The translations under genes and the position numbers were made by a program. The notes under the pieces were generated by a model. That model did not search any database. It was not told the origin of the DNA and worked only from the letters and a program-made list of their open reading frames with translations. A stretch of 64,000 nucleotides of DNA from Billgrantia sulfidoxydans (lineage in GTDB: Bacteria; Pseudomonadota; Gammaproteobacteria; Pseudomonadales; Halomonadaceae). Shown in pieces: positions 12,515 to 51,962 of this stretch (positions are counted from its first letter, which is position 1; every line of letters begins with the position of its first letter). Where the stretch lies: the NCBI RefSeq assembly GCF_017868775.1, contig NZ_CP053381.1, positions 930,001-994,000 of the forward strand, given 5' to 3'.

Positions 12515-12870
12515 CAGCGAGAACTGTGCTCCTCTTGCTGCCGCTGCTCATCGCCAGCGGCTGCAGCAGTGACGAAGCCGAGCCACCGCCGGGCGACCCG
12601 GAAGTGGGCCAGGCGGCGATCCGTGAGTACGGCTGCGGCAGCTGTCATGTCATCCCCGGCATCGGCGGAGCAGATGGCCGCACGGGGCCGTCGCTCGAGC
12701 GCATCGCCAGGCGTGTCTACCTGGCTGGCGTATTGCCCAACACGCCCGACGACATGGTGCGCTGGATTCGCGAGCCGGAAGCGGTCGACCCGCGCACGGC
12801 CATGCCGAACATGGGTGTCGGCGAGAGTGACGCCCGAAATATCACCGCCTACCTGTACACGCTCAAATGA
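12511..12870 (+). CDS. Mono-heme c-type cytochrome lipoprotein in the caa3 operon
   Basis: This 119-residue protein has a lipoprotein signal ending at LIASGC (Cys18), so it is anchored to the periplasmic face of a membrane. A class I cytochrome c domain follows, with CGSCH (Cys42, Cys45, His46) and a candidate axial Met in TAMPNMGVGE. It starts in the stop of the preceding gene (ATGA) and overlaps the next cytochrome by 4 bases. Its last 55 residues closely resemble the C-terminal domain of that neighbour (RRVYLAGVLPNTPDDM versus RRYIAGVLANTPENM), pointing to duplication. The likely role is electron delivery to the CuA-cytochrome c subunit. Confidence 0.88.
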   Translation: MTARTVLLLLPLLIASGCSSDEAEPPPGDPEVGQAAIREYGCGSCHVIPGIGGADGRTGPSLERIARRVYLAGVLPNTPDDMVRWIREPEAVDPRTAMPNMGVGESDARNITAYLYTLK

Positions 12871-13763
12871 ACGATCAGGAACGCCAAGACTCCGTCCGTA
12901 GGATCCGCAAGCGGATCGAAATCCATGTCGGCCTCGCTATCGCGGCGCTGGTCGTCGCCATGGGAGTGGGCGCGGCCGGCTTCGTCTATTGGGGCGCTTA
13001 TAACGTCTCGGCGCTGCAGCAGCATACCGAGCCCGTCTTCACCCTGCTCAACCTGGCGCTGGACCGCTCCATCCGCCAGCGAGCCGAGGAGATCGAGGTC
13101 CCGTCGTTGACGCCGGACATGGCCGAGGAGGGGCGACGCCTCTACCAGGCCCGCTGCGTGCAGTGCCATGGCGCGCCCGGCGTGGGCCGCGACGATGTCG
13201 GCAAGGGCATGACGCCGGTGCCGCCCAACCTGGCGCATACGGCGAAGGCCAAGAGCGCCGCCGAGCTCTTCTGGCCCATCAAGCACGGCATCAAGATGAC
13301 CGGCATGCCGAGCTGGCAGTTCAAGTTCACCGACGAGCAGATCTGGACCATCGTCGCCTTCATCATGCAGATGCCGGAGATGTCCCCGGCCGATTACCAG
13401 GCGCTGCGCGGTGGTGATGCGCGCGAGCCGCCGCGCGACGTGACGACCGTGAGCGCCTCCGCTCCGGCACGTGCCGCCGCGGAACCCGATCCCGCCCGCG
13501 GCAAGCTGGCCCTGTATGGCTATGCCTGCATCGCCTGTCATCGTATTCCGGGCACGGTGGGACCGCATTCTGACGTCGGCCCGCCGCTCGCGGGCATCGG
13601 CGGGCGTCGCTATATCGCCGGGGTGCTGGCCAACACGCCCGAGAACATGGTGCACTGGCTGCGCCACCCCACCGAGGTGGATCCGCTCACTGCCATGCCG
13701 GACCTGGACGTGACGGAGCAGGATGCCCTGGACATGGCGGCCTATCTGGAGACGCTGAAATAG
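12867..13763 (+). CDS. Membrane-anchored di-heme cytochrome c in the caa3 operon
   Basis: This 298-residue protein has an N-terminal transmembrane anchor (about 21-43) preceded by a basic stretch (RRIRKRIE) and two class I cytochrome c domains. The first has CVQCH (Cys97-His101) and a Met-rich GIKMTGMPSW segment. The second has CIACH (Cys221-His225) and TAMPDLDVTE. The domains are joined by an Ala/Pro-rich linker at about 190-210. The second domain is paralogous to the upstream mono-heme lipoprotein. It is the last gene of the operon. It probably shuttles electrons from the quinol/cytochrome pool to the oxidase, but the partner is not shown by the sequence. Confidence 0.88.
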   Translation: MNDQERQDSVRRIRKRIEIHVGLAIAALVVAMGVGAAGFVYWGAYNVSALQQHTEPVFTLLNLALDRSIRQRAEEIEVPSLTPDMAEEGRRLYQARCVQCHGAPGVGRDDVGKGMTPVPPNLAHTAKAKSAAELFWPIKHGIKMTGMPSWQFKFTDEQIWTIVAFIMQMPEMSPADYQALRGGDAREPPRDVTTVSASAPARAAAEPDPARGKLALYGYACIACHRIPGTVGPHSDVGPPLAGIGGRRYIAGVLANTPENMVHWLRHPTEVDPLTAMPDLDVTEQDALDMAAYLETLK

Positions 13764-13940: not shown

Positions 13941-14288
13941 ATGGCGCTGCTCACCCTGACAACCGTCCTGTTGACGACCTTGGGCCTTGGATGTCTGCTG
14001 CAATGGCTGCCGGCCCGTGGACAGCCAAAGCCGACCTACCCCCAGCGGGCACCTTTTCTCGGTGGCGGCAGCCCCGATACGCATGCCTGGAACCGCTATC
14101 ACATTCGCTACTACCCCATGACGCTGCTGCTGATCGCCTTCGAGATGGAGATGATGTTCATGTATCCATGGGCGGTGGTATTCGTCGAGAAGGGGGCCAC
14201 GGCGGTCATGGAAATGGGCATGTTCCTGGCCATCCTGGCGGTGGGCATCGTCTACGCCTGGCGTGAGGGGGTGTTCCGGTGGCAGTGA
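13941..14288 (+). CDS. NuoA-like small membrane subunit of a divergent complex I-like system
   Basis: This 115-residue protein has three membrane spans and is recognisable as NuoA. The second and third spans read RYYPMTLLLIAFEMEMMFMYPWA, matching the canonical FYL..FFVIFDVE..FLYPWA block with both acidic positions kept (Asp replaced by Glu). The canonical FECG/FESG loop motif is altered to FLGGG. The ATG at 13941 is chosen because GAGGG sits six bases before it. It is the first of eight overlapping complex I-like genes and starts 177 bases after the oxidase operon. A TATACA -10-like box at 13901 lacks a good -35. In ordinary complex I, NuoA lines the quinone cavity; its role here is unknown. 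Confidence 0.85.
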   Translation: MALLTLTTVLLTTLGLGCLLQWLPARGQPKPTYPQRAPFLGGGSPDTHAWNRYHIRYYPMTLLLIAFEMEMMFMYPWAVVFVEKGATAVMEMGMFLAILAVGIVYAWREGVFRWQ

Positions 14289-15592
14289 GCTGGCAACGTC
14301 GCCTGGCGGCTCGCGCGCCGGCGGCCGTCTTCCTTGCCGAGGCGGCGCGTATCGGCCCGGTGCGCGAAACGCTTGCGCTCGTGCCCGGTATTCGTCTCGT
14401 CGACACGCCTCGCCATGCCAGCGTGCTGCTGGTGGCGGGCGTTATCCCGACCGGCTGGCGCGACGACCTGCGCCGTATCCACGATCAGTTGCCCGCCCCG
14501 TTCGCCAGCGTGTGGTGTCGTTGCGAGCCATTCGAGGCACTGCGCAACCCCATACGTATCGATGTCGTCGAGGCGTTGCCCCAGGGCGTGGTCGAGACGC
14601 ATCGCGAGCTGATGCTGGGCAAGCGCGACAGTGCGCCCCGGCTGCTACCGGACGAGCCGCCGAATCCCTGGGAGGGGCTCGGCGACGATGGCCATGGCGG
14701 CGAGGGCATGATGGGCGGCACGCCCTACGGTCGGCCCATGGCCATGAACATGCAGGACGATCGTCGCGATGGCCTGACGCTGGATACGCTGACCTTCCGG
14801 CTGGGGCCGTTTCATTCCGCGTTGCCGCCGGGTCTTCAGGCCGAGGTCAGCCTGCAGGGTGATCTGGTGCAGGCCTGGACGGTCACGCGCAAGCCCTTCG
14901 CCGGCGTCGTCGAACCGATCTTTCATGCGGCTCGCCAGTCGTCGGTGCCGATCGCCGAGCTCGAGCTCGCTCGCGCCCGTCATCACCTGCACCGGCTTTA
15001 CCGGGGGCTGTGGTTGGCAGGCTGGCCGACAATGGCGGAACGGGCCCTGCGCCTGGCCGAAAAGCTGGGTCCGAACAGCGATGTTGCGGGCCTGCGCCGC
15101 GAGCTGGAGCGCGGGGGGCTGTGGCGGCTGGCGCTGCCCGAGCCTGGTCGCGGCGTGCTGGACGAAGCGCAGGCGCGGCAGCTCGGTGGTCCGGCGGCCC
15201 GCGCGGCGGGCATCGATGCGGACCTGCGCAGCGAGGATGCCAGCTACCGTCGGCTCGGTTTTGCACCGACCTGCCGAGAAGCGGGCGATACGGCGGCTCG
15301 CTGGCGGCAGTGGCTCGACGAGATCGAGCAGTCCCTGTCGCTGGCCGGCCGGGCCGCCCGTTACGACCTGAAGACCGCCGAGACCGCTGCCGTCGAGACC
15401 CCGCGCGGCCCTTGGGCCGAGGGCTTCCCTCACGATATGAGCGACCTGCTGGGTGAGGTGCTCCCGGAACTGGAGTGGGGCGAAGCGCTGCTGACCCTGG
15501 CCAGCCTGGACGTCGCTGCCCTTGATCCGCTCCCCCTCGCTAACGACTGGCGGACCGGCTTCGCCGAGGCGAAACGGGAGGGGAGTCCATGA
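14279..15592 (+). CDS. NuoB/NuoD-like fusion protein lacking the expected Fe-S and metal ligands
   Basis: This 437-residue soluble protein is a degenerate fusion of the small (NuoB/EchC) and large (NuoD/hydrogenase large) connecting subunits. Residues 45-82 (ASVLLVAGVIPTGW, IHDQLPAPFASVWC) match the NuoB core around its third cluster ligand, but no tandem CysCys motif precedes them. Only three cysteines exist (80, 82, 332). Residues 134-160 are Gly/Met-rich. Residues 166-205 (LTFRLGPFHSALPPG) align with the NuoD N-terminus. Residues 228-262 and 310-352 (GIDADLRSEDASYRRLGF, DEIEQSLSL) match the large-subunit body, and SLDVAALDP matches its C-terminus without cysteines. A GTG start overlaps nuoA-like by 10 bases. 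It can hardly hold cluster N2, so it cannot work as NuoBD does. Confidence 0.75.
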   Translation: MAVSWQRRLAARAPAAVFLAEAARIGPVRETLALVPGIRLVDTPRHASVLLVAGVIPTGWRDDLRRIHDQLPAPFASVWCRCEPFEALRNPIRIDVVEALPQGVVETHRELMLGKRDSAPRLLPDEPPNPWEGLGDDGHGGEGMMGGTPYGRPMAMNMQDDRRDGLTLDTLTFRLGPFHSALPPGLQAEVSLQGDLVQAWTVTRKPFAGVVEPIFHAARQSSVPIAELELARARHHLHRLYRGLWLAGWPTMAERALRLAEKLGPNSDVAGLRRELERGGLWRLALPEPGRGVLDEAQARQLGGPAARAAGIDADLRSEDASYRRLGFAPTCREAGDTAARWRQWLDEIEQSLSLAGRAARYDLKTAETAAVETPRGPWAEGFPHDMSDLLGEVLPELEWGEALLTLASLDVAALDPLPLANDWRTGFAEAKREGSP

Positions 15593-16515
15593 TCCTCGAT
15601 CAGTTGATCCTGCCGTGGCTGCTGGCCTGGCTGATGGCTGGCCTGGGCGCCTATCTCGTGGCCGTGCTCGACCGTTGGATGGCGACGGGCTCGACCCAGG
15701 CGGGAAGCGTTTGGCTCGCTCCCCTGGCCAGCGCCGCCTGGCTGTTGACGCAGCAGGCCACGACCACCGAGGCACCGGACGCAGGTGCCTGGCGGTTGGC
15801 GCCGGCGCTCTACCTGGCCCTGGCCGCCACGGGGCTGGCACTGGTGCCGTGGTCGCCGACGCTGGTCGGGGTCGACCTGGCGACCAGCCTGGTGCTGTGG
15901 GGCAGCCTGGAGGCGCTGGCCACGGTGGTGATCTTTTTGCATGGGTGGTCGGCCAATTCTCACCTGGCGTTGATCGGCGCCTACCGCTACGTCGCCTTGG
16001 GGATCTCCTACCTGCTGGTCAGCATGTTCGTGCTGATCGGCGTGGCGCTGCCGGCCGAGTCGCTGCGCTGGACCGAGGTGGTCGCAGCGCAGGAGTCGCT
16101 CTGGCACGTGGTGTCCCAGCCGCTGGGGCTGCCGCTGTTCCTGGTGGTGGGGCTGGGTCTGACCTTCTGGGGACCGCTCGACCTGGCCGACTCGACGGAT
16201 CTCTCGACGGGCACCGCGGTCGAGCGTTCGGGCCCGCCGCGTCTGGTGTGGGCGCTGGCGCGCGCCGCCATGCTGGTGGCCTTCAGTGCGATTGCCGCCA
16301 CCGCCTTCCTCGGTGGCTGGATGGGTCCCTGGCTGCCGGGGCCGGCCTGGCTGCTGCTCAAGAGCCTGGCGGTACTGGTGGTGCTGCTATGGCTGGGGCG
16401 TCGGCTGCCCAGGCTCGCTCCCGAGCGCTGCCTGACGCTGATGTGGGTGGTGCTGCTGCCGCTCTCCTTCGTCGACCTGATCTGGGCCGGGGCGGTGGCC
16501 CTGTGGATGGCCTGA
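15589..16515 (+). CDS. NuoH-like membrane subunit (complex I subunit 1 family, divergent)
   Basis: This 308-residue polytopic protein is a clear but divergent NuoH. The segment GWSANSHLALIGAYRYVALG (119-138) matches the canonical GW(S/A)SNSKYALLGALRA block. FLGGWMGPW (240-248) and LPRL...LTLMWVVLLPLSFVDL match the C-terminal helices. Several conserved acidic positions of the quinone chamber are changed: the Glu of ISYE is Leu142, the PEAE/E loop reads LADSTDLSTG (199-208), and the N-terminal ERK is DRW. It overlaps the BD-like stop by 4 bases. In complex I, NuoH couples quinone chemistry to proton pumping; here quinone binding is doubtful. Confidence 0.85.
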   Translation: MILDQLILPWLLAWLMAGLGAYLVAVLDRWMATGSTQAGSVWLAPLASAAWLLTQQATTTEAPDAGAWRLAPALYLALAATGLALVPWSPTLVGVDLATSLVLWGSLEALATVVIFLHGWSANSHLALIGAYRYVALGISYLLVSMFVLIGVALPAESLRWTEVVAAQESLWHVVSQPLGLPLFLVVGLGLTFWGPLDLADSTDLSTGTAVERSGPPRLVWALARAAMLVAFSAIAATAFLGGWMGPWLPGPAWLLLKSLAVLVVLLWLGRRLPRLAPERCLTLMWVVLLPLSFVDLIWAGAVALWMA

Positions 16516-16534
16516 GTGAGGCCAGGGAGCCGAC

Positions 16535-17167
16535 ATGACGCCAAGTCTCGCTACGCATATTGCCTTTGTGGTGCTGGCGGCGCTGGCCGTGCTCAGCGGC
16601 TGGCGGGTGTTCTGCACCGATTCGATGGTGCGGGCGTCGTTCTTCCTGTTGCTGTCGTTCATCGCCGTAGGCGGGATCATGATCCTGCTCACCGCCGAGT
16701 ACCTGGGGGTGGCGATGTTCTTCATGATGGCCGTCGAGATGATGGTCATGGCGCTGTTCATGGTCATGTTCATGATGAACCCGGCCGGCCTCAATCCGAT
16801 GAAGATGGTGCACCAGGAGAGAGTTGCCATCGTCGCCGGTGTCGCTGTCTTCGGCGTGCTCTCGGCGGTGGCCGTGCTCGGCGATTTTCCCGATATGCCG
16901 CTGCCGGCGGAGCATGCGCCGGTGATCTCGCTGGGCCGTGAGCTGCTCGGCGATTCGATGCTGGTCTTCGAGACCGCCGGCGTGGTGCTGCTGACCACCA
17001 TGGTCGGCGTGGTGGTGCTGTCGAGCCGACGTGGCCGCTATGGCCGCGCCGACGAGGGCTCGGTACCGCCCGGGCTCGAGCCCGGCGGCGAGCCGGCAGG
17101 CCGGCCAAAGGAGAGCGAAGAGGAAAAAGGAGAAGAGGGCGGCCACGCCCACCAACACCACCATTAG
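16535..17167 (+). CDS. NuoJ-like membrane subunit with Glu in TM3 and a His-rich tail
   Basis: This 210-residue protein has five spans in the NuoJ pattern: TAEYLGVAMFFMMAVE then MMVMALFMVMFMM matches the conserved third helix. The canonical YVGA motif, site of the pi-bulge, is replaced by MAVE, placing Glu68 inside the membrane. After the fifth span the protein continues with a charged 40-residue tail (Gly/Pro/Glu/Lys-rich) ending GHAHQHHH. The tail's charged and His-rich composition could bind a metal, but that is speculation. It starts 19 bases after the NuoH-like gene and is followed by a 45-base gap before NuoK-like. NuoJ normally takes part in the conformational coupling of the pump. Confidence 0.85.
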   Translation: MTPSLATHIAFVVLAALAVLSGWRVFCTDSMVRASFFLLLSFIAVGGIMILLTAEYLGVAMFFMMAVEMMVMALFMVMFMMNPAGLNPMKMVHQERVAIVAGVAVFGVLSAVAVLGDFPDMPLPAEHAPVISLGRELLGDSMLVFETAGVVLLTTMVGVVVLSSRRGRYGRADEGSVPPGLEPGGEPAGRPKESEEEKGEEGGHAHQHHH

Positions 17168-17212
17168 CGATGACGCGGTGGAACGACGCGTAACACAGGC
17201 CAGGAGGGCGAC

Positions 17213-17518
17213 ATGACACTCACCACGCTACTCGTTCTTGCAGCGGCGCTGATCGGCATCGGCTTCTATGGGGCGCTGTCGCAGCAATCGTTCGTGATGC
17301 TGATGATGGGCCTCGAACTGATGCTCAACGGGGCGATGTTGGCGGCCGTGGCCTTCTGGGCCTATAGCGGCGCCGGTGCCCCCGAAGGGCAGCTGTTGAC
17401 CATCGTGATCATGGCAGTCATGGCGATCGAGATGGCGCTCGGCTTCGCCCTGGTGGTGGCGGTGTTCCGCGCCAAGCAGGCCGACACGACCGAAGCCCTG
17501 AGCGAGTTGAAGCAATGA
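17213..17518 (+). CDS. NuoK-like membrane subunit
   Basis: This 101-residue, three-span protein matches NuoK in length and pattern. Both membrane glutamates needed for proton transfer are kept: the one in MMGLELMLNG (second span) and the one in AVMAIEMALGFALVV (third span, canonical AAAEAAIGLAL). An AGGAGG lies 9 bases before the ATG. It overlaps the L-like gene by 4 bases (ATGA). Retention of both glutamates while the peripheral arm is lost argues that ion translocation is still the job of this complex. Confidence 0.9.
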   Translation: MTLTTLLVLAAALIGIGFYGALSQQSFVMLMMGLELMLNGAMLAAVAFWAYSGAGAPEGQLLTIVIMAVMAIEMALGFALVVAVFRAKQADTTEALSELKQ

Positions 17519-19506
17519 CGCTCTGGGCCGTACCGCTGACGCCGTGGTTGCTGTCGCTGCTGCTTTACGGGGCCGGGCGGCGATTCGGGCCGCTGGCTCT
17601 CGGGCTCTCGGCGGGGGTGGCGCTATTGCTGACTCTTGCCGTGACGGGGCTTTCGCTGAACGCCGGGGTAGTGGCGAGCTATCGCTGGAGCGAGTCCCTG
17701 ACGCTGGGGCTGGAACGCTCCCTGGCAGGCGACGTTTTCGCCTGGCTGGTACCGCTGGTGGCATTGCCGGTGACGCTCTATGCCGCGATCCATGTCAGAC
17801 AGGCGCCGCACCGCCTGGTGGCCCTGCTGCTGGCCTTTGTTGGCGCCATGCAACTGTTGGTGCTGGCCAGTGACCTGCTGACCCTGCTGGTAGCCTGGGA
17901 GCTGGTCGGGGCCTGTTCCTGGGGCTTGATCCTGCATCGCTGGCAGGAGGAGGGCATCCCGAGCCAGGCGATGCACGCCTTCCTCGCCACCCGGCTGGGC
18001 GACCTGGGGCTGTATGTTGCCGCAGGGGCGCTGTTCGCCGGCACCGGCGGTTTCGGCTATGCCGCCCTCGACGATCTCTCGGGTGGGCTGTTGCACGTCG
18101 CCGTGGCCGGCATCGTACTGGCGGCGGCGGCCAAGTCAGCACAGCTGCCGTTCAGTGCTTGGTTGTTTGCCGCCATGGCCGGGCCGGTGCCGGCCTCGGC
18201 CCTGCTGCATTCGGCGACCATGGTCGCCGCCGGAACCTTCCTGCTCGCTCGGCTGGCGCCGCAGCTCGAGCAGGCCGCCTGGTTTTCGCCCCTGGTGATT
18301 TTCCTGGGGCTGGCCACGGCGCTGACAGGCGGCCTGGTGGCGAGCTGCCAGGGCCACGCCAAGCGGCTGCTGGCCGCTTCCACGTCGGCGCAGTATGGGC
18401 TGATGTGGGTCGCCGTGGGGGCGGGCTTCCCCGGTGTGGCACTGCTGCACGCCGTCACCCATGCCTGCCTCAAAGCGGGGCTGTTCCTGGTCGCGGGGCT
18501 GGCCGAACGGCGCGTCGACAGCTACCGGCTGGCGGACATGCGACTGGGGCGACAGCTGCCGGGCGTGGCGGGGGCGAGCCTGGTGCTGTGCCTGGCGCTG
18601 GCCGGCGTGGCGCCGCTGGGGGCGGCCTGGAGCAAGGAGCAGATCGCCTCCGCCGCCGTCGATATCTCGCCCTGGCTGGCGCTGTTTGTGGCCATCGCCG
18701 GCGGGCTCAGTGCGCTCTATGCCACCCGCTTCCAGCGGCTGGCCTTCGGTCGCTCGCCACGGCGACTCGTCTCGGGCCGGCCGCCGGCCGGGGCGGAGCG
18801 AATTTCGCTGGCGGGGCTGGCGCTTGCCACGCTGATGCTCTCGCTGCTGTGGTGGCGGCCGTTCTCCGAGTCGATCGCGGCGAACTTGGGGGTCGTGCTG
18901 CCCAAGGAGCATGCGTGGCTGATGGTGGTGTCGCTGGCGCTGGTGGCGCTGGGCATTGGCATGGGGCTGTGGTTAACCCGTGGGAGCCCGCGTGAGGCGG
19001 AACCGGCCTGGCAACCGGTCCTGGCCGACTGGTTCGGCCTGCCGACGTTGCATAGCGGCGTGGGATTGGGTGTCATGCGGTTCGCCCGGGCCCTGGCTCG
19101 CTTTGACGATCGGGTATTCGACTTGCCATTGACCCGCCTGGCGCAAGGTGCCAGTGCCGGTGCAAGTGGCCTGGCGCGTGGCGACGACGCCCTGCTGGCC
19201 GTGCCTATCAACCAGCTGGCAAAAGGCATTCACGCAACCGCACGAGGCTTGGCGCGCGGAGACGATCGGGTCGTCGACTCCGGCTTGATGATCACCGCGC
19301 GCTGCGCGCAGTGGCTGGCCGACGTCAACACTCGGCGCGGCGAATGGCTGGCCGACGGCCTGCCCAGTGCGCTGGCACAGGGGGTAGAGGCCGGCGGGCG
19401 CTGGGCCCGGGCGACGCAGTCCGGCCAGACCCACCACTACTACACCGCCATGGCCGCCGGCCTCGGTACGTTCTTCCTGCTGCTGCTGATAGGAGCCTCG
19501 ATGTGA
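17515..19506 (+). CDS. NuoL-like antiporter subunit with repeat-containing lateral helix
   Basis: This 663-residue member of the NuoL/MrpA antiporter family has about 15 spans. It keeps the TM5 glutamate (Glu129 in LVAWELVGACSWG), the TM7-8 block AAAAKSAQLPFSAWLFAAMAGPVPASALLHSATMV and the Lys/His residues of the central path. After the span ending LALVALGIGMGLWL the C-terminal region (about 523-635) forms four copies of a roughly 26-residue repeat before a final helix (TAMAAGLGTFFLLLLIGA). That position corresponds to the lateral helix which in complex I braces the M and N subunits. The first base of the M-like start codon lies in its stop. Confidence 0.9.
   Translation: MTLWAVPLTPWLLSLLLYGAGRRFGPLALGLSAGVALLLTLAVTGLSLNAGVVASYRWSESLTLGLERSLAGDVFAWLVPLVALPVTLYAAIHVRQAPHRLVALLLAFVGAMQLLVLASDLLTLLVAWELVGACSWGLILHRWQEEGIPSQAMHAFLATRLGDLGLYVAAGALFAGTGGFGYAALDDLSGGLLHVAVAGIVLAAAAKSAQLPFSAWLFAAMAGPVPASALLHSATMVAAGTFLLARLAPQLEQAAWFSPLVIFLGLATALTGGLVASCQGHAKRLLAASTSAQYGLMWVAVGAGFPGVALLHAVTHACLKAGLFLVAGLAERRVDSYRLADMRLGRQLPGVAGASLVLCLALAGVAPLGAAWSKEQIASAAVDISPWLALFVAIAGGLSALYATRFQRLAFGRSPRRLVSGRPPAGAERISLAGLALATLMLSLLWWRPFSESIAANLGVVLPKEHAWLMVVSLALVALGIGMGLWLTRGSPREAEPAWQPVLADWFGLPTLHSGVGLGVMRFARALARFDDRVFDLPLTRLAQGASAGASGLARGDDALLAVPINQLAKGIHATARGLARGDDRVVDSGLMITARCAQWLADVNTRRGEWLADGLPSALAQGVEAGGRWARATQSGQTHHYYTAMAAGLGTFFLLLLIGASM
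19093..19410 (+). repeat. Four degenerate 26-residue coding repeats in the NuoL-like C-terminus
   Basis: Within the L-like gene the translation repeats with a period of about 26 residues. The units begin LARFDDRVFD, LARGDDALLA, LARGDDRVVD and TRRGEWLADG, each followed by an amphipathic stretch such as RLAQGASAGA or QLAKGIHATA. The DNA copies are diverged, so this is an old protein-level repeat and not a recent tandem duplication. Confidence 0.7.
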
Positions 19507-20990
19507 TGCTGACCGTCGCGCTGTTCGCTCCCCTGCTGGGCGCTCTCCCGCTTGCCTTGAATTCGCGCTGGAGTGCCGCTCAGGCGCGCTGGATCGCCGT
19601 GGTAGCATCCGGCGCCTCGTTGCTGGCGCTGGCGCTGGCCTGGCTGACGTTCGATCCGGCCGGTCCGCTGTTCCAGCATGTCGACGAGGTGCAGTGGGTG
19701 CCGTCGCTGGGCATGGCCTACCGGGTTGGCGTCGATGGTATCGCCCTGGCCGTGGCGACCATGAGTGCGGTGCTGTTCGTTGCCGCCGTCGTCTATCCCT
19801 TCGATACCCGGGGGGAGGCGCGCCAGTACTATGCCTGGCTATTGTTCCTGCACGGCGTGTCGCTAGGGGTCTTCCTGGCCCTCGATCTGCTGATGTTCTA
19901 TGTCTGCTTCGATCTCACTCTGGTGGGCATGTACTTTCTGATCGGGCGCTGGGGTCACGGCGACCCCCAGCTCGCCGCCTTCAAGTTCTTCCTCTATACC
20001 TTTGCCGGCTCGCTGGCACTGCTGCTTGGCATCATCGGGCTCTATCTCGCTCTCGAGACGCCGACATTCGACATGCGCGCCATCATCGAGCAGCAGCCGC
20101 TGGCGGGCAGGGGCACCTATGCCAGCCTGGTATTTCTGGCGATGATGGTGGGGCTGGCGGTCAAGACCCCGCTGGTGCCGGTGCATACCTGGCTGCCCCA
20201 GGCCCACGTCGATGCGCCAGGGCCGGCCTCGGCGATTCTTGCCGGGGTACTGCTCAAGATGGGTACCTACGGCATGATCCGGCTGCCGCTGGCCATGCTC
20301 GGCGAGACCTTCTCCCGTTTCGCCCTGCCGGTGGCAGTGCTGGCGCTGGTGGCGATTCTCTACGGTGCCCTGGTGGCGCTGGGGCAGACCAACCTCAAGC
20401 GGCGTATCGCCTATACCTCGATCAACCACATGGGCTACACCGTGCTGGGGATTGCCGTGGCCGCTTCGCTGATAGGCGGGCATGACGAAGCACGGCGGCT
20501 GGCGCTGACCGGTGCCACGGTGGAGATGGTTGCCCACGGCCTGATTACCGGCTCGCTGTTCCTGATCAGCGGCTCGCTGTGGCAGCGTTCGGGGGATTAT
20601 GCCATGGCGCGTTATGGTGGCCTGGCTCGCCGGGCGCCGCAGCTGACCGCATTGACCGTGCTGGCCGCCTTCGCCAGTCTCGGCATGCCGGGGCTGGCCG
20701 GCTTCGTCGCCGAGTTTCAGGTGTTTACCGGCACCTTCGCCGTCTATCCCTGGCTGGCGGTGCTGGGGGTGCTGGGCATCGTGATCACCGCGGCGCTGTT
20801 CCTCGACCTGCTGTGGCGGCTGTTCTTCGGCCGGCTGCCCGAGCACCTGGCACATTTCCCCGACCTCAACCGGATCGAAATCGGGGTGCTCGGTGTGCTG
20901 GCACTGGGGGTCGTGGCGATCGGTGTGGCGCCACACTTCCTGCTCGAGGTGGTTGAGGCCTCGGCGAGCCTGCTGGCCGGAGGACGCTGA
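19506..20990 (+). CDS. NuoM-like antiporter subunit
   Basis: This 494-residue protein has about 14 spans and is a typical NuoM by overall pattern: YRVGVDGIALAVATMSAVLF, GLAVKTPLVPVHTWLPQAHV (TM7-8 Lys and proton-path block), LKRRIAYTSINHMGYTVLG and PGLAGFVAEFQVF. The conserved TM5 glutamate (canonical FYVFFE) is replaced by Asp136 in MFYVCFDLTLVGMYF. This is a conservative but unusual change at a residue that is essential in E. coli complex I. The ATG at 19506 overlaps the L-like stop by one base, and its own stop overlaps the N-like ATG by one base. Confidence 0.9.
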   Translation: MLTVALFAPLLGALPLALNSRWSAAQARWIAVVASGASLLALALAWLTFDPAGPLFQHVDEVQWVPSLGMAYRVGVDGIALAVATMSAVLFVAAVVYPFDTRGEARQYYAWLLFLHGVSLGVFLALDLLMFYVCFDLTLVGMYFLIGRWGHGDPQLAAFKFFLYTFAGSLALLLGIIGLYLALETPTFDMRAIIEQQPLAGRGTYASLVFLAMMVGLAVKTPLVPVHTWLPQAHVDAPGPASAILAGVLLKMGTYGMIRLPLAMLGETFSRFALPVAVLALVAILYGALVALGQTNLKRRIAYTSINHMGYTVLGIAVAASLIGGHDEARRLALTGATVEMVAHGLITGSLFLISGSLWQRSGDYAMARYGGLARRAPQLTALTVLAAFASLGMPGLAGFVAEFQVFTGTFAVYPWLAVLGVLGIVITAALFLDLLWRLFFGRLPEHLAHFPDLNRIEIGVLGVLALGVVAIGVAPHFLLEVVEASASLLAGGR

Positions 20991-22396
20991 TGCCCGTGGC
21001 GGACCTGACCCCCGAACTGGCGCTGCTGATCGGGGCGGTGATGATCGTGTTGGGTGCCGCCTTCCTGCCGCACGCCCGCCAGGGCTGGCTGGCCGGTGCG
21101 GCTCTGGTGACGCTGACGATCGCCCTGGGTGCCGTCGTCGTGCAGTGGCCGGCAGCGCCTTCGCTAACGTTCTCTGGGGTGTGGATCCTGGATGCACCGG
21201 CCTCGCTGGCCAAGCTCGTCATTCTGGGTAGCGGCGCACTTGCCGTGGCGATGTCGCCCGACTGGATGCGCAGCGACCCGCGGCATGGCGAGTACTATGC
21301 GCTGTGCCTGTTCGCGCTGCTGGGCGCCGTGGTCATGGCGGCGGCTGGCGACAGCATGGAGCTGCTGCTCGGCGTGCTGCTCTCCTCGGCGGCGAGCTAC
21401 CCGCTGGTGGCCTACCACCGCGGGTTCGCGCCGGCGCTGGAAGCGGGCATGAAGTACTTCCTGATCGGCGCTCTGGCCAATGCGCTGCTGTGTGTCGGGG
21501 TGGTCATGCTGTTCGGCCTGGTCGGTGACACCGACTACCGCGTCCTGGCCGCGTTTCTTGCCCAGAGCGACCGGCTGGTGCTCAGTGTGGCCGTGGGCTG
21601 CGTGATCCTGGGGCTTGCCTTCAAGCTGGCGGCGTTTCCGGCGCATGCCTGGATGCCGGATGTCGCCCAGGCGGCCCCGGCGCCGGTTGCGGCGATGCTC
21701 AGCGTGGCGCCCAAGGTAGGAGCGGCGCTGGCGCTGGCGCGTCTGGTGGCGCTGTTGCCGGGAGAGCAGGGGCTCTGGCTGGTAGCGCTGGTCTCGGCGG
21801 TCACCATGACCCTGGGCAACCTGGCGGCGCTTCGCCAGGTCGACGTTCGCCGGCTGCTGGGCTGGTCATCGGTCTCCCAGTCCGGGTATGCGTTGATGGC
21901 GGTGGCCGTGATCGGGCGCGCCGAGGGTGCCGTGTCGGCATTGCTTGTCTTCCTCGTCGCCTATGCGCTGGCCAACCTGGCCGCCTTCGCCGTGGTCACT
22001 CATCTGCGCGGACGCACCGACCTTGCCGATTATCGCGGCCTGGCCAGGGCGCAACCCTTGGCGGCTGTGGTGCTGATCGTTGCCATGCTGTCACTGGTGG
22101 GCATTCCGCCGCTGGTGGGTTTCTTCGGCAAGTTCCTGCTGTTCGAGGCTACGCTGGCGGCCGACCATGCCTGGCTGGCCATAGTCGCGGCGCTCAATAC
22201 CCTGGTTTCGCTGTACTACTACCTGCGAGTGGCTGCCGTCATGGTCTTTACGCGCCCAACCGGGCCCGTCGCGGTGTTGGGGGGGCATTCAAGGCTCGCC
22301 ATGCTGGCAGGGGGCGTGGGAATCGTGGCGTCAGCCCTGCTCATGGAGCTCCTCCTGGGGGCGTCAGGCGTAGTCATGCTCCCCCTGCCGTCCTGA
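20990..22396 (+). CDS. NuoN-like antiporter subunit
   Basis: This 468-residue, roughly 14-span protein matches NuoN: GDSMELLLGVLLSSAASYPL contains the TM5 glutamate, LGLAFKLAAFPAHAWMPDV is the TM7-8 block, VDVRRLLGWSSVSQSGYAL and GIPPLVGFFGKFLLF are typical family motifs. It is the last gene of the A-BD-H-J-K-L-M-N cluster and starts in the M-like stop (TGATG). No NuoC, E, F, G or I genes occur on either side: upstream is the oxidase operon and downstream prkA. Confidence 0.9.
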   Translation: MPVADLTPELALLIGAVMIVLGAAFLPHARQGWLAGAALVTLTIALGAVVVQWPAAPSLTFSGVWILDAPASLAKLVILGSGALAVAMSPDWMRSDPRHGEYYALCLFALLGAVVMAAAGDSMELLLGVLLSSAASYPLVAYHRGFAPALEAGMKYFLIGALANALLCVGVVMLFGLVGDTDYRVLAAFLAQSDRLVLSVAVGCVILGLAFKLAAFPAHAWMPDVAQAAPAPVAAMLSVAPKVGAALALARLVALLPGEQGLWLVALVSAVTMTLGNLAALRQVDVRRLLGWSSVSQSGYALMAVAVIGRAEGAVSALLVFLVAYALANLAAFAVVTHLRGRTDLADYRGLARAQPLAAVVLIVAMLSLVGIPPLVGFFGKFLLFEATLAADHAWLAIVAALNTLVSLYYYLRVAAVMVFTRPTGPVAVLGGHSRLAMLAGGVGIVASALLMELLLGASGVVMLPLPS

Positions 22397-22704: not shown

Positions 22705-24627
22705 ATGAGCATCTTCGATCATGTGCAGAACCGCTTCTCTCGTGTCCAGCAGGAGGAAATGAGCCTGCAGGAGTACCTGGAGCTGTGTCGTGAGGACCCC
22801 ATGGCCTACGCCAGCGCCGCCGAGCGGATGCTGAAGGCCATCGGCGAACCCGAGGTGATAGACACCGCCAAGGATCCGCGGCTCTCCCGAATCTTTTCCA
22901 ACAAGGTGATTCGCCGCTATCCGGCCTTCTCCGAGTTCTACGGCATGGAGGAGGCGATCGAGCAGATCGTGGCCTACTTCCGCCACGCCGCGCAGGGGCT
23001 CGAGGAGCGCAAGCAGATCCTTTATCTGCTGGGCCCGGTGGGCGGCGGCAAGTCGTCGCTGGCCGAGCGGCTCAAGCTGTTGATGGAGCGAATCCCGTTC
23101 TATGCCATCAAGGGCTCGCCGGTCTTCGAGTCGCCGCTGGGGCTGTTCTCGCCGGAGGAGGACGGTGAGCTGCTCGAGAAGGAGTACGGCATTCCGCGGC
23201 GCTACGTGAAGAGCGTGATGTCGCCCTGGGCGGCCAAGCGGCTCAAGGAGTACGGTGGCGACATCTCGCAGTTCAAGGTGGTGCGCCTGTATCCCTCGCG
23301 GCTCAACCAGATCGCCATCTCCAAGACCGAGCCGGGCGACGAGAACAACCAGGACATCTCCTCGCTGGTGGGCAAGGTCGACATCCGCCAGCTCGAGCTC
23401 TACTCCCAGGACGACCCGGATGCCTACAGCTTCTCCGGGGGGCTGTGCAAGGCCAATCAGGGGCTGATGGAGTTCATCGAGATGTTCAAGGCACCCATCA
23501 AGGTGCTGCATCCGCTGCTGACCGCGACCCAGGAGGGCAACTACAACCCCACCGAGGGCATGGGGGCGATCCCCTTCGACGGCATCGTGCTGGCCCACTC
23601 CAACGAGAGCGAGTGGCAGGCGTTCCGCAACAACCGCAACAACGAGGCGTTCCTCGATCGCGTCTACATCGTCAAGGTGCCGTACTGCCTGCGCGTGACC
23701 GAGGAGATCAACATCTACAAGAAGCTGCTCGAGCACTCTTCGCTGGCCGAAGCGCCCTGCGCGCCGGACACGCTGCGCATGCTGGCACAGTTCTCGGTGT
23801 TGTCGCGCCTCAAGGAGCCGGAGAACTCCAGCATCTATTCGAAGATGCGCGTCTACGACGGCGAGAACCTCAAGGACACCGACCCCAAGGCCAAGTCGAT
23901 CCAGGAGTATCGCGATGCAGCGGGGGTCGACGAAGGCATGGACGGGCTCTCCACCCGCTTCGCCTTCAAGATCCTGTCGAAGGTGTTCAACTTCGACAAC
24001 CACGAGATCGCCGCCAACCCGGTCCACCTGCTCTACGTGCTGGAGCAGCGCCTCGAGCAGGAGCACCTGCCGAAGGAGACCTTCGAGCGCTACCTGCGCT
24101 ACATCAAGGAGTTCATGGCGCCGCGCTACGTCGACTTCATCGGCAAGGAGATCCAGACCGCGTATCTCGAATCCTACTCCGAGTACGGTCAGAACATCTT
24201 CGATCGCTACGTCACCTACGCCGACTTCTGGATCCAGGACCAGGAGTACCGCGATCCGGAGACCGGCGAGCTGTTCAACCGTCAGGCGCTCAACGAGGAG
24301 CTGGAGAAGATCGAAAAGCCGGCCGGCATCTCCAACCCCAAGGACTTCCGCCACGAGGTGGTCAACTTCGTGCTGCGGGCGCGGGCCCAGAACAACGGCA
24401 TGAACCCCAGCTGGCAGTCCTACGAGAAGCTGCGCGGCGTGATCGAGCACAAGATGTTCGCCAACACCGAGGAGCTGCTGCCAGTGATCTCCTTCAACGC
24501 CAAGGCCTCCACGGCCGACCAGAAGAAGCACGAGGACTTCGTGGCCCGCATGAAGGAGCGTGGCTATACCGAGAAGCAGGTGCGGCTGCTCTCGGAGTGG
24601 TATCTGCGGGTGCGTAAATCGCAATAA
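22705..24627 (+). CDS. prkA: PrkA family serine protein kinase (YeaG)
   Basis: This 640-residue AAA+ P-loop protein is a serine/threonine kinase homologue involved in stress and nutrient-limitation responses. The Walker A motif GPVGGGKSS lies at 110-118. Conserved family blocks include [31 protein letters not shown], and [11 protein letters not shown] close to the C-terminal kinase-like region. The length matches E. coli YeaG (644). An AGGAGG ribosome-binding site precedes the ATG. It begins the prkA-yeaH-spoVR operon, a set conserved in many proteobacteria, with a 23-base gap to yeaH. Confidence 0.97.
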
Positions 24628-24650
24628 CCGGCGCGAGCCAGGAGGTCGGC

Positions 24651-25934
24651 ATGACCTATTTCATCGATCGACGCGCCAACGCCAAGAACAAGAGCGCCGT
24701 GAACCGCCAGCGCTTCCTCGATCGCTACCGGACGCACATCAAGCGTTCGGTCGAGGAGGCCGTCAACCGCCGTTCGATCACCGACATGGAGCGTGGCGAG
24801 AAGGTCTCGATTCCGACTCGCGACATCTCGGAGCCGGTGTTCCAGCACGGCCCGGGCGGCAAGCGCACCATCGTCAGCCCCGGCAACAAGGAGTTCGTCG
24901 AGGGAGATCGCCTGCGCCGCCCCAGCGGGGGCGGCGGAGGAGATGGCTCCGGCGAGGGCGGGGCCTCCAACCAGGGCGAGGGCATGGATGAGTTCGCCTT
25001 CAGCCTGACCCGAGAAGAGTTCCTCGACTTCGTCTTCGATGGCCTGGAACTGCCGCACCTGGAGCGCAAGGCGCTCAAGGACCTGGACGAAGTGAAGCCG
25101 GTGCGCGCCGGGGTGACCCGCGATGGCGTGCCGGCGCGGATCAACATCGTGCGCTCCATGCGCGAGGCCTATGCCCGGCGCATCGCCATGCGCGCGCCCC
25201 TGCGCCGCGCGCTGCGCGCTGCACAGGAGGCGCTGGACGAGGAGGAGCGCAAGGACCCGGTGCTGCGCAACCCATCTCGCATCGCCGAACTCAAGGCCGA
25301 GATCGAGCGCCTCGAGAAGCGGCTCGAGGCGGTGCCCTTCATCGACACCTACGACCTGCGCTACAACAACCTGATCAACCAGCCGCAACCCTCGAGCAAG
25401 GCGGTGATGTTCTGCGTCATGGACGTCTCGGGCTCCATGACCCAGGCCCACAAGGACATCGCCAAGCGTTTCTTCCTGCTGTTGTACCTGTTCCTCGAGC
25501 GCAACTACGAGAAGGTCGAGCTGGTCTTCGTGCGCCACCACACCGCGGCCAAGGAGGTCGACGAAGAGGAGTTCTTCTACTCCCGGGAGACCGGCGGCAC
25601 CATCGTCTCCAGTGCCCTGACCCTGGTCGACGAGATCATCACCCGGCGCTATCCGCCGACCCAGTGGAACCTCTACGTGGCCCAGGCCTCGGACGGCGAC
25701 AACTGGGACGACGACTCGGTGAACTGCCGCGAACGGCTGATGAAGTCGCTGATGCCGCGCCTGCAGTACTACACCTACGTGGAGATCACCCCCCATGCCC
25801 ACCAGGCGCTGTGGGAGGAGTACGAGACCGTGGCCGCCGAGTTCCCCGACCGCTTCGCCATGCGCCAGATCGTCGAGGCGGGCGATATCTATCCGGTGTT
25901 CCGCGAGCTGTTCAAGCGCCGTGCCGCCCATTGA
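24651..25934 (+). CDS. yeaH: YeaH/YhbH family protein (DUF444)
   Basis: This 427-residue cytoplasmic protein is the usual partner of PrkA. The start [20 protein letters not shown] matches the family, followed by a Gly-rich segment [12 protein letters not shown] (about 91-105). The C-terminal half has a von Willebrand A-like metal-site motif DVSGSM (about residue 258), a Walker-like VELVFVRHH segment and [12 protein letters not shown]. Homologues act with the kinase in stress survival, but their biochemistry is not settled. It lies 23 bases after prkA and 17 bases before the SpoVR gene, each gap containing a strong AGGAGG. Confidence 0.95.
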
Positions 25935-25951
25935 CGCGACGAGGAGGCATC

Positions 25952-27508
25952 ATGACCCGACGCAAGCCGATCGCCACCGGTTCCGACTGGAACTTCGAGA
26001 TCCTCGAGGCGTATGAGCACGAGCTGGCCAGGCTGGCCGACGAGTATCGGCTGGACACCTATCCCAACCAGATCGAGATCATCACCACCGAGCAGATGAT
26101 GGATGCCTATGCCAGCGTGGGGATGCCGGTGGGCTATCATCACTGGTCGTTCGGTAAGCAGTTCCTGGCGGTCGAGCAGGCCTACCGGCGTGGCCAGATG
26201 GGGCTGGCCTACGAACTGGTGATCAACTCCGACCCCTGCATCGCCTATCTCATGGAGGAGAATACGCTGATGATGCAGGTGCTGGTGATGGCACACGCCT
26301 GCTATGGCCACAACTCCTTCTTCAAGGGCAACTACCTGTTCCGCACCTGGACCGACGCCAGCTCGATCGTCGATTACCTGGTCTTTGCCCGCAAGTACGT
26401 GGCCGAGTGCGAGGAGCGTCACGGCGTGACCGCCGTCGAGCAGCTGCTCGACGCCTGCCACGCGCTGCAGAACTACGGCGTCGACCGCTACAAGCGGCCG
26501 TCGCCGATCTCCGCCGAGGAGGAGGTGCGGCGCCAGGCGGAGCGCGAGGAGTACCTCCAGGCTCAGGTCAACACGCTATGGCGCACGATTCCCGGGCGTC
26601 AGCGGGCCGATGCCCTGCCCAGCGACCTGGACAGCGAGGAGGACCCCCTGGGGCTGCATGGGGGAGGGCGCTATCCTCCCGAGCCGCAGGAGAACCTGCT
26701 CTACTTCCTCGAGAAGAACGCGCCGCTGCTGGCGCCCTGGCAGCGCGAGATCGTGCGGATCGTGCGCAAGCTGGCGCAGTACTTCTATCCCCAGCGCCAG
26801 ACCCAGGTGATGAACGAGGGCTGGGCCTCCTTCTGGCACTACACCCTGATGAACCGGCTCTACGACGAGGGCCTGGTGGACGAGGGGCTGATGCTGGAGT
26901 TCCTGCAGTCGCACACCGCGGTGGTCAGCCAGCCCGGCTTCGATAGCCCTTTCTACAGCGGCATCAACCCCTATGCGCTGGGTTTCGCCATGTTCAGCGA
27001 CATCCGGCGCATGTGCGAGAACCCCACCGACGAGGATCGCGAGTGGTTCCCCGACACCGCGGGCAGCGACTGGCTCGAGGCGGTGCACTTCGCCATGCGC
27101 AACTTCAAGGACGAATCCTTCATCCAGCAGTTCCTGTCACCCAAGGTGATGCGCGACCTCAAGCTGTTCAGCATCGTCGACGACGACCAGGAGGAGATGC
27201 TCGAGGTCACCGCCATCCACGACGAGCGAGGCTATCGCCGGATCCGCGAGGCGCTGGCGCAGCAATATGCGCTGTCGCTGCGCGAGCCGAACATCCAGGT
27301 CTACGAGGCCAACATCCGTGGCAATCGCTCCCTCACCCTGCATCATGTGCAGGACAGCCGGCGTCCGATGGGCCGCAGCGTCTACCCGGTGATCCGCCAC
27401 CTGCACCAGCTCTGGGGCTTCCCGGTGCGGCTGGAGTCGCTCTCGGAGGACGGGGCGGTGGTAAGACGCTACCAGTGGCCGTTACCCGACGAGGAAGGCA
27501 AGGAGTAG
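25952..27508 (+). CDS. SpoVR family protein (YcgB-like)
   Basis: This 518-residue protein belongs to the SpoVR family, named for a Bacillus spore-cortex protein and widespread in non-sporulating bacteria next to prkA and yeaH. Family blocks are GMPVGYHHWSFGKQF, ELVINSDPCIAYLMEEN, FFKGNYLFRTWTDASSI, NEGWASFWHY and GINPYALGFAMF. The conserved His and Glu residues in HACYGHNSFF and NEGWAS suggest a metal site, which is inference. The ATG at 25952 has GAGGAGG five bases upstream. It ends the operon and converges on the HiPIP gene. Confidence 0.95.
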   Translation: MTRRKPIATGSDWNFEILEAYEHELARLADEYRLDTYPNQIEIITTEQMMDAYASVGMPVGYHHWSFGKQFLAVEQAYRRGQMGLAYELVINSDPCIAYLMEENTLMMQVLVMAHACYGHNSFFKGNYLFRTWTDASSIVDYLVFARKYVAECEERHGVTAVEQLLDACHALQNYGVDRYKRPSPISAEEEVRRQAEREEYLQAQVNTLWRTIPGRQRADALPSDLDSEEDPLGLHGGGRYPPEPQENLLYFLEKNAPLLAPWQREIVRIVRKLAQYFYPQRQTQVMNEGWASFWHYTLMNRLYDEGLVDEGLMLEFLQSHTAVVSQPGFDSPFYSGINPYALGFAMFSDIRRMCENPTDEDREWFPDTAGSDWLEAVHFAMRNFKDESFIQQFLSPKVMRDLKLFSIVDDDQEEMLEVTAIHDERGYRRIREALAQQYALSLREPNIQVYEANIRGNRSLTLHHVQDSRRPMGRSVYPVIRHLHQLWGFPVRLESLSEDGAVVRRYQWPLPDEEGKE

Positions 27509-28628: not shown

Positions 28629-28673
28629 GGCATGACAAGGAGAGTCACGATGCCGGATCCCACCCAGTCTGCC

Positions 28674-29138
28674 TCACTTGTCGTCGATCTCGACGCCCAC
28701 CGCCTTCTCGTAGACCAGCGTGCCGCCAAGGGCGCCGGTGAGGCCGACCAGGACAGCGGTGAGGAGGGACAGGGCGATGGCCCAGGGCAGCAGGTCGGCG
28801 GCGTCCAGGTAGCGCCACAGCCAGTTGAGCGAGGCCAGAGACAGCATCATCACCGCCACGATGGCGTGACACCAGCCGAGAAGCTTGCGTCGGATCCGAT
28901 AGATCGTGACAAGGTCGATCAGGCCCACGGTGCTGGCGATCCAGCCACTCAGTGCGCCGATACCGGCCAACCACAGGCTCGCCTCGGCCCAGAATGGGTT
29001 TCCGGAATAGAGGTAGGCGGCATCGCTGCCGACCAGCAGCAGCAGGCAGGCGACGGGAAAGTGCACCAGGGTCGGATGCATGGGGTGGCCGAAGATGGCA
29101 ATGCGGCTATTGATGGTGCGGATCGGTTGGTCGGCCAT
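28674..29138 (-). CDS. DUF2231 domain membrane protein
   Basis: This 154-residue protein has four membrane spans and the DUF2231 start pattern (IAIFGHPMHPTLVHFPVACL), in which the HPMHP...HFP histidines are conserved and may bind metal or heme. DUF2231 proteins are frequently found near oxidase or copper/heme genes, but their function is unknown. AAGGA precedes the ATG. Its 5' end lies antisense to the likely start of the second coxB (12 bases of overlap at 29127-29138), so the two genes are divergent with almost no room for conventional promoters. Confidence 0.8.
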   Translation of the reverse strand: MADQPIRTINSRIAIFGHPMHPTLVHFPVACLLLLVGSDAAYLYSGNPFWAEASLWLAGIGALSGWIASTVGLIDLVTIYRIRRKLLGWCHAIVAVMMLSLASLNWLWRYLDAADLLPWAIALSLLTAVLVGLTGALGGTLVYEKAVGVEIDDK

Positions 29139-46019: not shown

Positions 46020-46412
46020 TCAGCCGTGGCCGCGGTCGGGGTGGGGCACGGGCTTGTCGCCGATCTCCTCGGGGCGCAGCTCGGGTGGGCGCCCGCCGGT
46101 CTCGTCGATGTGCTTGAGCTGCATGTGCAGCCCGGTCTTGGCCAGCAGGTGGGCGCTCACCGGGGCGGTGATGAACAGGAACAGCGTGATCAGCATCTCC
46201 TGGATGTCGGGCTTGCCCTGGGTGACCCAGAAGTAGAGCATCGAGGCGATCAGCATGCAGCCGATGCCCAGGGTGGTGGCCTTGGTGGGGCCATGCAGGC
46301 GCATGTAGAAGTCGCGCAGGTGGGCCATGCCCAGCGAGCCGATGAAGGCGAAGACGCCGCCGGCGACGAGAAAGAAGGCGATCACGCCTTCGAGGATCAC
46401 GTACAGGGTCAT
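46020..46412 (-). CDS. mrpG: Mrp/Pha-type Na+/H+ antiporter subunit G (system 1)
   Basis: This 130-residue, three-span protein matches MrpG: FFLVAGGVFAFIGSLGMAHL, DFYMRLHGPTKATTLG and LFLFITAPVSAHLLAKTGL. The C-terminal 35 residues are hydrophilic. AGGAGG precedes the ATG. It is the last gene of the minus-strand operon A-C-D-E-F-G and lies 8 bases after mrpF. MrpG is essential for the function of the heteromeric cation/proton antiporter. Confidence 0.93.
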   Translation of the reverse strand: MTLYVILEGVIAFFLVAGGVFAFIGSLGMAHLRDFYMRLHGPTKATTLGIGCMLIASMLYFWVTQGKPDIQEMLITLFLFITAPVSAHLLAKTGLHMQLKHIDETGGRPPELRPEEIGDKPVPHPDRGHG

Positions 46413-46420
46413 GGGGCCTC

Positions 46421-46690
46421 CTATTCGATGATGTCGCCGCGCAGCAGGTACTTGCACACCGCCACGGTGCTGATGAAGCCGAGCATGGCGATCAGCAGTG
46501 CCGACTCGAAGTAGGTCTTGGTATTGAGCCACAGCCCCATCAGTACGATCAGGGCGATGGAATTGATGTACATGGTGTCCAGCGCCAGGATCCGGTCGGG
46601 CATGTCCGGCCCCACGGCGAGCCGGTAGACGTTCAGCAGCAGGGCCAGCACCACCAGTGTCAGGCTGATCGTCAACGCGATATCTAGCAT
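46421..46690 (-). CDS. mrpF: Mrp/Pha-type antiporter subunit F (system 1)
   Basis: This 89-residue, three-span protein has the MrpF pattern RLAVGPDMPDRILALDTMYIN and a C-terminal span ending STVAVCKYLLRGDIIE. The conserved Asp residues of GPDMPDRILALD match the family. Its start overlaps the mrpE stop by 7 bases. Confidence 0.93.
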   Translation of the reverse strand: MLDIALTISLTLVVLALLLNVYRLAVGPDMPDRILALDTMYINSIALIVLMGLWLNTKTYFESALLIAMLGFISTVAVCKYLLRGDIIE

Positions 46691-51855: not shown

Positions 51856-51962
51856 CGTTTGCTCGTCCTGCGCGGGTCCGTGAGGAGAGGGGCATAGTTT
51901 GCCTACGGGACGGGAGGACGCAAGCATCAAGCGTTTGTTTCCCGTCCTTGGGCCAGAACGTC

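Follow-up and report, generated by a model that had tools for sequence, protein, structure and literature searches.

How complex I couples an event in its soluble arm to ion movement 100-200 Å away is still debated. Subunits resembling NuoL, NuoM, NuoN and NuoK are also put to non-redox use in the Mrp (CPA3) antiporters, and other systems close to the one described here are the energy-converting and group 4 [NiFe] hydrogenases, such as Mbh and Hyc/Hyf, together with the hydrogenase-related Ehr complexes. Here we describe an eight-gene, complex I-like cluster in a 64,000-nucleotide stretch of the Billgrantia sulfidoxydans genome (contig NZ_CP053381.1, positions 930,001 to 994,000; this whole stretch is hereafter called the window). 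The cluster encodes counterparts of NuoA, NuoH, NuoJ, NuoK, NuoL, NuoM and NuoN, together with a NuoB/NuoD-like fusion protein, BD, as the sole soluble subunit.

A previous study on Marinobacter atlanticus reported a nuoADHJKL-like cassette that lies in a copper-resistance operon and is co-regulated with the copper genes in the transcriptome, and suggested that copper redox chemistry is the energy source of the cassette (Eddie et al. 2021, PMC8233155). A preliminary description of the window locus knew of no described function for such a combination of genes; the M. atlanticus study is a published note on a cassette of this kind. The M. atlanticus cassette very likely belongs to the family of the window cluster, which is present with all eight genes at three Marinobacter loci (L046, L048 and L053). 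In the paper, the cassette has seven genes, with no nuoM or nuoN, and the sections of it considered here describe no gene family, heavy-metal-binding domain (HMBD), quinone-site loss or methionine pattern (PMC8233155). No other description of such a cassette was found in the open-access literature, within which the family, its two branches, the insertion of HMBD into BD, the quinone-site loss and the methionine pattern appear to be new.

As judged from sequence, the family has lost redox and quinone-site residues, retains the ion-path residues of NuoK, NuoL and NuoM, has a methionine pattern in NuoA, NuoJ and NuoK, carries HMBD in one of its two branches, and is often found among copper genes. 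Our leading, still tentative, reading is that of a complex I-derived, non-redox membrane complex for the handling of Cu(I)/Ag(I), with export driven by the proton motive force as its most likely activity.

Conserved order, lost redox ligands and retained ion paths

As first described, the genes stand in the order A, BD, H, J, K, L, M, N on the plus strand of the window (13,941, or 13,917, to 22,396, depending on whether NuoA starts at the ATG at 13,941 or the TTG at 13,917). All eight products match the expected Pfam family, the membrane subunits A, H, J, K, L, M and N above gathering scores. A scan of contigs from one genome per species found 117 relatives of the cluster, and counts "of 80" refer to the best 80 of these loci. 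The full eight-gene order recurs at 75 of the 80 and is, because of this recurrence, far from chance. Four of the five exceptions are contigs that end after BD (three within 1.2-3.9 kb or less, one within 3 bases); the fifth, L064, is without M and N although 10 kb of contig remains. Hosts include Halomonadaceae, Marinobacter, Salinisphaera, Bowmanella, Aurantimonas, Fulvimarina, Roseobacter-group bacteria, Allopusillimonas, Caenispirillum and others, and two of the assemblies are titled Actinomycetota. Salinicola peritrichatus (L016, L017) and Modicisalibacter xianhensis (L014, L022) have two copies each. The BD protein of Billgrantia antri (L009) is 85% identical to that of the window, and 424 matches to BD were found in the protein set at E 1e-3. 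Strong matches were present in 7 of 61 sampled genomes of the genus, 3 of 194 of the order and 5 of 369 of the class; the cluster is thus rare and patchy, as for an accessory trait.

The reported lack of C, E, F, G and I genes in the cluster extends to its relatives: tblastn with E. coli NuoC, NuoE, NuoF and NuoI (E ≤ 1e-3) gave no match in the 80 related loci, and a NuoG-like match occurred at one of them (L056). An ordinary complex I scattered over the host genome (4.49 Mb, one contig, 99.99% complete) was ruled out, as the single PF00346 match is BD itself, with no second NuoD-like gene, and the single PF01512 (NuoF-like) match lies within a NuoE/F/G-like trio of 165, 516 and 974 residues, which we take to be a formate dehydrogenase of the FdsGBA type. 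NqrA is present, and ordinary complex I is not found there. Decay of the genes was ruled out as well: the ratio of nonsynonymous to synonymous change (dN/dS) against L009 is 0.08-0.25 for all eight genes and, against L010, 0-0.25 in seven, with NuoN at 0.76 based on few changes. Codon comparison with these two relatives therefore indicates mostly purifying selection with one exception, and together with the residue losses described next it bears out the proposal of a non-redox complex under selection.

BD is a degenerate protein. Its PF00346 match scores 32 bits and covers residues 292-360 only, and its B-like part alone is weak (residues 37-76, E 0.06 or worse), although a 32-row profile matches NuoB chains at about 1e-7. 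An AlphaFold2 monomer model (pLDDT 87.8) has the 49-kDa fold; the fold-search matches span residues 155-416, that is, not the B-like part. The cysteines of cluster N2 are gone, with no cysteine column reaching half of the rows in the 32-row BD alignment of the window branch (maximum 10 of 32), and it has no cysteine column for [NiFe] or iron-sulfur (Fe-S) ligands, which sets BD apart from the hydrogenases and Ehr complexes; the paired cysteines that bind [NiFe] in the large subunit of group 4 hydrogenases are likewise not seen. This alignment confirms the supposition that the soluble subunit is without metal-ligand cysteines; the D part of a sister branch, described below, has one further cysteine column (17 of 26). 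At the position of E. coli NuoD H224, proline is found in 30 of 31 window-branch and 26 of 26 sister-branch sequences, and the position of Y273 is deleted in 31 of 31 and proline in 26 of 26, respectively. Both are quinone-site residues of complex I.

Between its B and D parts, BD of the window branch has a linker with the consensus GHGGEGMMGGxPYGRPMAM, the methionines of which are invariant (32 of 32). Among the best 120 of the 424 BD matches, GRxMxM is present in 118 and missing in P0104 (partial) and P0120. The linker is low-confidence and unordered in the monomer model, as expected of a segment that might be ordered by a ligand or partner.

Ion-path residues of the membrane subunits had been described as kept, and for NuoK, NuoL and NuoM this holds. 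The counts, which include the window, cover 60-75 of the 80 loci per subunit, since gene calls shorter than 85% of their window counterpart were left out. NuoK has E35 in 65 of 65 and, at the E73 position, 58 Glu and 7 Asp; NuoL has E129, K207 and K374 in 73 of 73. NuoM has D136, the Asp for Glu already noted in the window, and K220 and K251 in 70 of 70, with E403 in 69. NuoN departs from the description in having Leu at the position of E. coli E133 (67 of 67), and it keeps K155, K242 and K381 (67 of 67) and K212 (66 of 67). In NuoH, the E157 and E241 positions are changed. The complex is thus like complex I in its homologous A, H, J, K, L, M and N subunits and degenerate B/D in the usual relative order, its antiporter-type residues and its 49-kDa fold, and differs from it in a cluster without C, E, F, G and I, the missing N2 cysteines and quinone residues, the changed NuoH E-channel, and the methionines of NuoA, NuoJ and NuoK. 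It differs from Mrp in that none of its proteins matches a MnhB, MnhE, MnhF or MnhG model and in having A-, H- and BD-like subunits.

Methionines, metal-binding domains and copper neighbours

Methionine is well known to bind Cu(I) and Ag(I) in both exporters and importers. Alignment of the membrane subunits with those of ordinary complex I revealed methionines at fixed positions in NuoA, NuoJ and NuoK only. Fifteen positions are methionine in 100% of the aligned sequences of both branches and in 0% of the ordinary complex I compared. They are M64, 65, 69, 72, 76, 80, 81, 89, 91 and 142 of NuoJ (70/70 window branch, 15/15 sister, 0/9 ordinary), M69, 71 and 74 of NuoA (61/61, 16/16, 0/12) and M29 and M70 of NuoK (65/65, 16/16, 0/10). 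The sister sequences (16, or 15 for NuoJ) include two Rubrobacter plasmids (Actinomycetota), and the ordinary set was drawn from 20 regions; for A, H, J and K it comprises 8 to 11 of them together with E. coli. Where a column is conserved at 95% or more and differs from ordinary complex I, the residue is methionine in 20 of 85 cases in A/J/K against 5 of 121 in H/L/M/N (Fisher, 4e-5), a comparison in which the ordinary set comprised 5 NuoM, two of them probably from other complexes, and 2 NuoN only. M65, 69, 72, 76 and 80 of NuoJ are spaced by 4, 3, 4 and 4 residues and would form one helix face if this segment is helical as in E. coli. Those of NuoA and NuoK lie beside acidic residues, E68/E70 in NuoA and E35/E73 in NuoK. 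In addition, at least three histidines occur in the last 45 residues of NuoJ in 71 of 77 window-branch sequences and in none of 8 ordinary ones.

The sister branch, mainly Rhodobacterales and also Rubrobacter, keeps all eight genes in the order of the window branch and has a longer BD (for example, in genomes G043, G407, G502 and G535). Between its B and D parts lies an insert with two or three copies of Pfam HMBD and histidine-rich runs; in L122, L123 and L125, HMBD is found at E 3e-28 to 3e-44. A search with the D part of sister BD gave 730 matches. Among the best 120 of these, 105 have PF19335, 94 fit the HMBD pattern, and all 120 have M-[SAG]-M just ahead of the D part, MSM at the position of the window linker; eight full-length proteins without the HMBD pattern have inserts rich in His, Asp and Glu. 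Common to both branches, therefore, are the eight-gene order, an M-x-M ahead of the D part, and the methionine positions in A, J and K. NuoM proteins of both branches form one clade (support 0.96) beside E. coli NuoM and two other NuoM, and the complex therefore derives from a complex I-type ancestor. One sister BD (P0156) has 1055 residues with ten HMBD motifs, a repeat expansion, and another (L124:2265-4402) is interrupted by 13 in-frame stops, with intact copies in relatives.

The neighbourhood was searched with hidden Markov models (HMMs) of multicopper oxidase, CopB, CusA, CusB, P1B-ATPase and DUF411, built from neighbour clusters and named by eye. At E 1e-25, 36 of the 80 related loci had a match, versus 3 of 40 control windows of 20 kb drawn at random from four genomes, and the genes that recur most around the cluster serve detoxification, encoding multicopper oxidase, CopB, CusA and P-type ATPase. 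One of the three control matches is an island at 1.30-1.32 Mb of the window genome. This island (G000:C1:1300001-1320000, L155), far from the cluster, is the genome's own copper island, with a P1B ATPase, CopB, a multicopper oxidase and DUF411. One of four extra window-family loci had a copper match (L129), and at 1e-10 a P-type ATPase or multicopper oxidase was matched at five of nine sister loci (L123, L210, L211, L212 and L214).

Annotated plasmids gave an independent look at the copper link. Two plasmid records match window BD and 12 match sister BD; 8 of the 14 were viewed, and in six of these, genes for copper or heavy metals lie no more than 12-14 kb away, namely in Halomonas KO116, Nitratireductor, Paracoccus SCSIO 75233, Sulfitobacter SK025, Rubrobacter tropicus and R. 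marinus. For example, the neighbours in Halomonas KO116 are CopC, CopD, a copper-binding protein, a response regulator and a sensor, a multicopper oxidase and CopB. The R. tropicus plasmid has genes for a heavy-metal P-type ATPase, a metal-sensitive regulator and a copper ion binding protein directly upstream of nuoA in the same orientation, ending 73 bases short of it. The Cus and CopA exporters share this neighbourhood, methionine-based handling of Cu(I)/Ag(I) and HMBD modules with the family, and differ in that the eight proteins are unrelated in sequence to RND or P-type ATPase transport domains.

The cluster in the window and its surroundings

Table 1. Positions of the cluster genes and their conspicuous segments in the window
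Feature	Coordinates	Strand	Remarks
NuoA-like subunit	13941..14288	+	115 residues from ATG; PF00507, E 3e-24
NuoA residues 68-74, EMEMMFM	14142..14162	+	E68/E70 (E. coli D79/E81) with Met on both sides
BD, NuoB/NuoD-like fusion, sole soluble subunit	14279..15592	+	437 residues; PF00346; AlphaFold2 model
NuoB-like part of BD	14390..14518	+	without N2 cysteines; profile comparison
BD linker GHGGEGMMGGTPYGRPMAM between B and D	14690..14746	+	Met-Met and M-x-M invariant, 32-row alignment
NuoD (49-kDa)-like part of BD	14747..15532	+	quinone His and Tyr positions lost
NuoH-like subunit	15589..16515	+	PF00146; E-channel glutamates largely changed
NuoJ-like subunit	16535..17167	+	PF00499
NuoJ methionine ladder, residues 64-81, MMAVEMMVMALFMVMFMM	16724..16777	+	M64, 65, 69, 72, 76, 80, 81
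NuoJ His-rich C-terminal tail, HAHQHHH	17144..17164	+	window branch only
NuoK-like subunit	17213..17518	+	PF00420; E35 and E73 retained
NuoK MLMM, residues 29-32, ahead of E35	17297..17308	+	M29 invariant, both branches
NuoK MAVMAIEM, residues 67-74, around E73	17411..17434	+	M70 invariant, both branches
NuoL-like antiporter-type subunit	17515..19506	+	PF00361; ion-path residues retained
NuoM-like antiporter-type subunit	19506..20990	+	PF00361; TIGR01972 above cut-off; Asp replaces Glu of transmembrane helix 5 (TM5)
NuoN-like antiporter-type subunit	20990..22396	+	PF00361; Leu at TM5 Glu position

As the preliminary description noted, a caa3 oxidase operon lies ahead of the cluster in the window; SCO1/SenC and CtaG genes are part of it. 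The functional coupling that this placement seemed to hint at does not generalize, as a coxA-like gene was called at one of the 80 related loci only (L009). Two small cytochrome c genes (12526-13763) lie between the operon and nuoA, and the larger of them has relatives near ten related loci. Downstream are genes for PrkA, a 427-residue protein and SpoVR (22705-27508), PrkA being downstream in L009 too, and 6 kb from the cluster a second cytochrome oxidase pair (28650-32758), a COX2 with cytochrome c (526 residues) and a COX1 (843 residues). Two back-to-back Mrp-type antiporter operons occupy 46020-57894, one on the minus strand with a fused MrpA-B (943 residues) and one on the plus strand with a 775-residue MrpA, MnhE and MnhG. 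Elsewhere in the family, EgtB-like genes occur at 18 related loci (including L012, L015-L017 and L019-L021), at 17 of them directly downstream of the cluster, and at L219 the genes next to nuoN on its downstream side are annotated as egtB and egtD, of ergothioneine synthesis.

Proposed metal export and competing explanations

That the family is linked to metal is highly probable, and the copper link is well supported at family level; the methionine pattern, the metal-binding domains of the sister branch and the copper neighbourhood point to a specific role. Under the export reading, the metal would be caught on the cytoplasmic side by BD, through the M-x-M loop in the window branch and HMBD in the sister branch, and passed into a methionine-lined path of NuoA, NuoJ and NuoK at the site of complex I's glutamate E-channel. 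It would then move outward as protons, or another cation, enter via the antiporter-type L, M and N subunits, so that overall the machine would resemble complex I in reverse, with metal export replacing quinone chemistry. Stated in brief, a metal-binding cap may have taken the place of the redox arm, and a methionine-rich region that of the E-channel, with the proton modules kept. Assembly as one complex, the lining of the path by methionines and the coupling to protons are presumed here; transport is modestly favoured over sensing, and export is probably the right direction as opposed to import. The window copy would share the role of the family, though no copper gene is nearby.

Several observations weigh against export. 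No copper-gene match was found at E 1e-25 in 44 of the 80 related loci, and none at E 1e-10 anywhere in the 64 kb of the window; among sister loci, the first four likewise had none at 1e-25, and no copper gene was seen near the plasmid loci of Paracoccus sediminicola and Thioclava (two of the eight viewed). The p value for the excess over control windows, 2e-5, is optimistic, because the HMMs were seeded from the loci's own neighbours and the loci are related. CueR-, CusR- or CopR-like sites are not enriched upstream of nuoA (CueR-like, 1 of 78 versus 0.65 expected), and copper regulation is therefore without support from the upstream DNA. HMBD was not found by Pfam scan in window BD or in three window-branch relatives, and the histidine tail of NuoJ is absent from the sister branch (0 of 15). 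Finally, the methionines of A, J and K could serve packing or sensing.

The nearest rival is a metal-gated antiporter, in which Cu(I)/Ag(I) acts as a signal at BD and the A/J/K methionines, and protons are exchanged for Na+/K+ or leaked. Such a device would help cells under metal stress by restoring their membrane potential, pH or ion balance, the metal itself staying untransported. The methionines, HMBD and copper neighbours fit it equally, L, M and N keep antiporter residues, and Mrp, a member of the same superfamily, performs Na+/H+ exchange. We nonetheless regard it as rather unlikely: ten invariant NuoJ methionines over a membrane-crossing span appear to exceed the needs of a sensor, and the window already has two Mrp operons.

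A pump driven by copper redox, with Cu(I)/Cu(II) chemistry at BD powering proton movement, has the copper link of the family in its favour and was proposed for the M. atlanticus cassette (Eddie et al. 2021, PMC8233155). It is improbable here, as no path to an electron acceptor is apparent: Fe-S ligands are missing, the quinone His and Tyr are lost, and the NuoH E157 and E241 positions are changed. Moreover, methionine ligands prefer Cu(I) to Cu(II). Just as improbable is metal uptake or supply, by which Cu(I) would be moved inward or to cuproenzymes such as the adjoining caa3 oxidase. SCO1/SenC and CtaG, encoded in the operon ahead of the cluster, are copper-insertion factors and speak for it, but that neighbourhood is confined to one of the 80 loci and the commonest neighbours are detoxification genes. 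A general Mrp-like H+/cation antiporter for salt or pH, its copper neighbours a by-product of shared genomic islands, suits the many marine or halophilic hosts and the loci, the window among them, without a copper-gene match, but is very improbable in leaving the HMBD insertion, the invariant methionines and the Rubrobacter operon context unexplained.

If the export reading is correct in full, which we consider possible though doubtful, the complex would be a third route of copper export beside P-type ATPases and RND pumps, a proton-driven exporter with the E-channel turned into a methionine conduit. If copper is moved, the complex would represent a new class of metal transporter, plasmid-borne in Proteobacteria and Actinomycetota. 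A natural derivative in which the membrane machinery is kept and the driving event changed would also be a direct test of which parts of complex I carry the coupling. Because the genes are now annotated as NADH dehydrogenase or hypothetical protein, genome-based claims of complex I for such organisms would need correction. Thus, the family suggests a respiratory proton pump rebuilt into a machine for handling copper (or silver).

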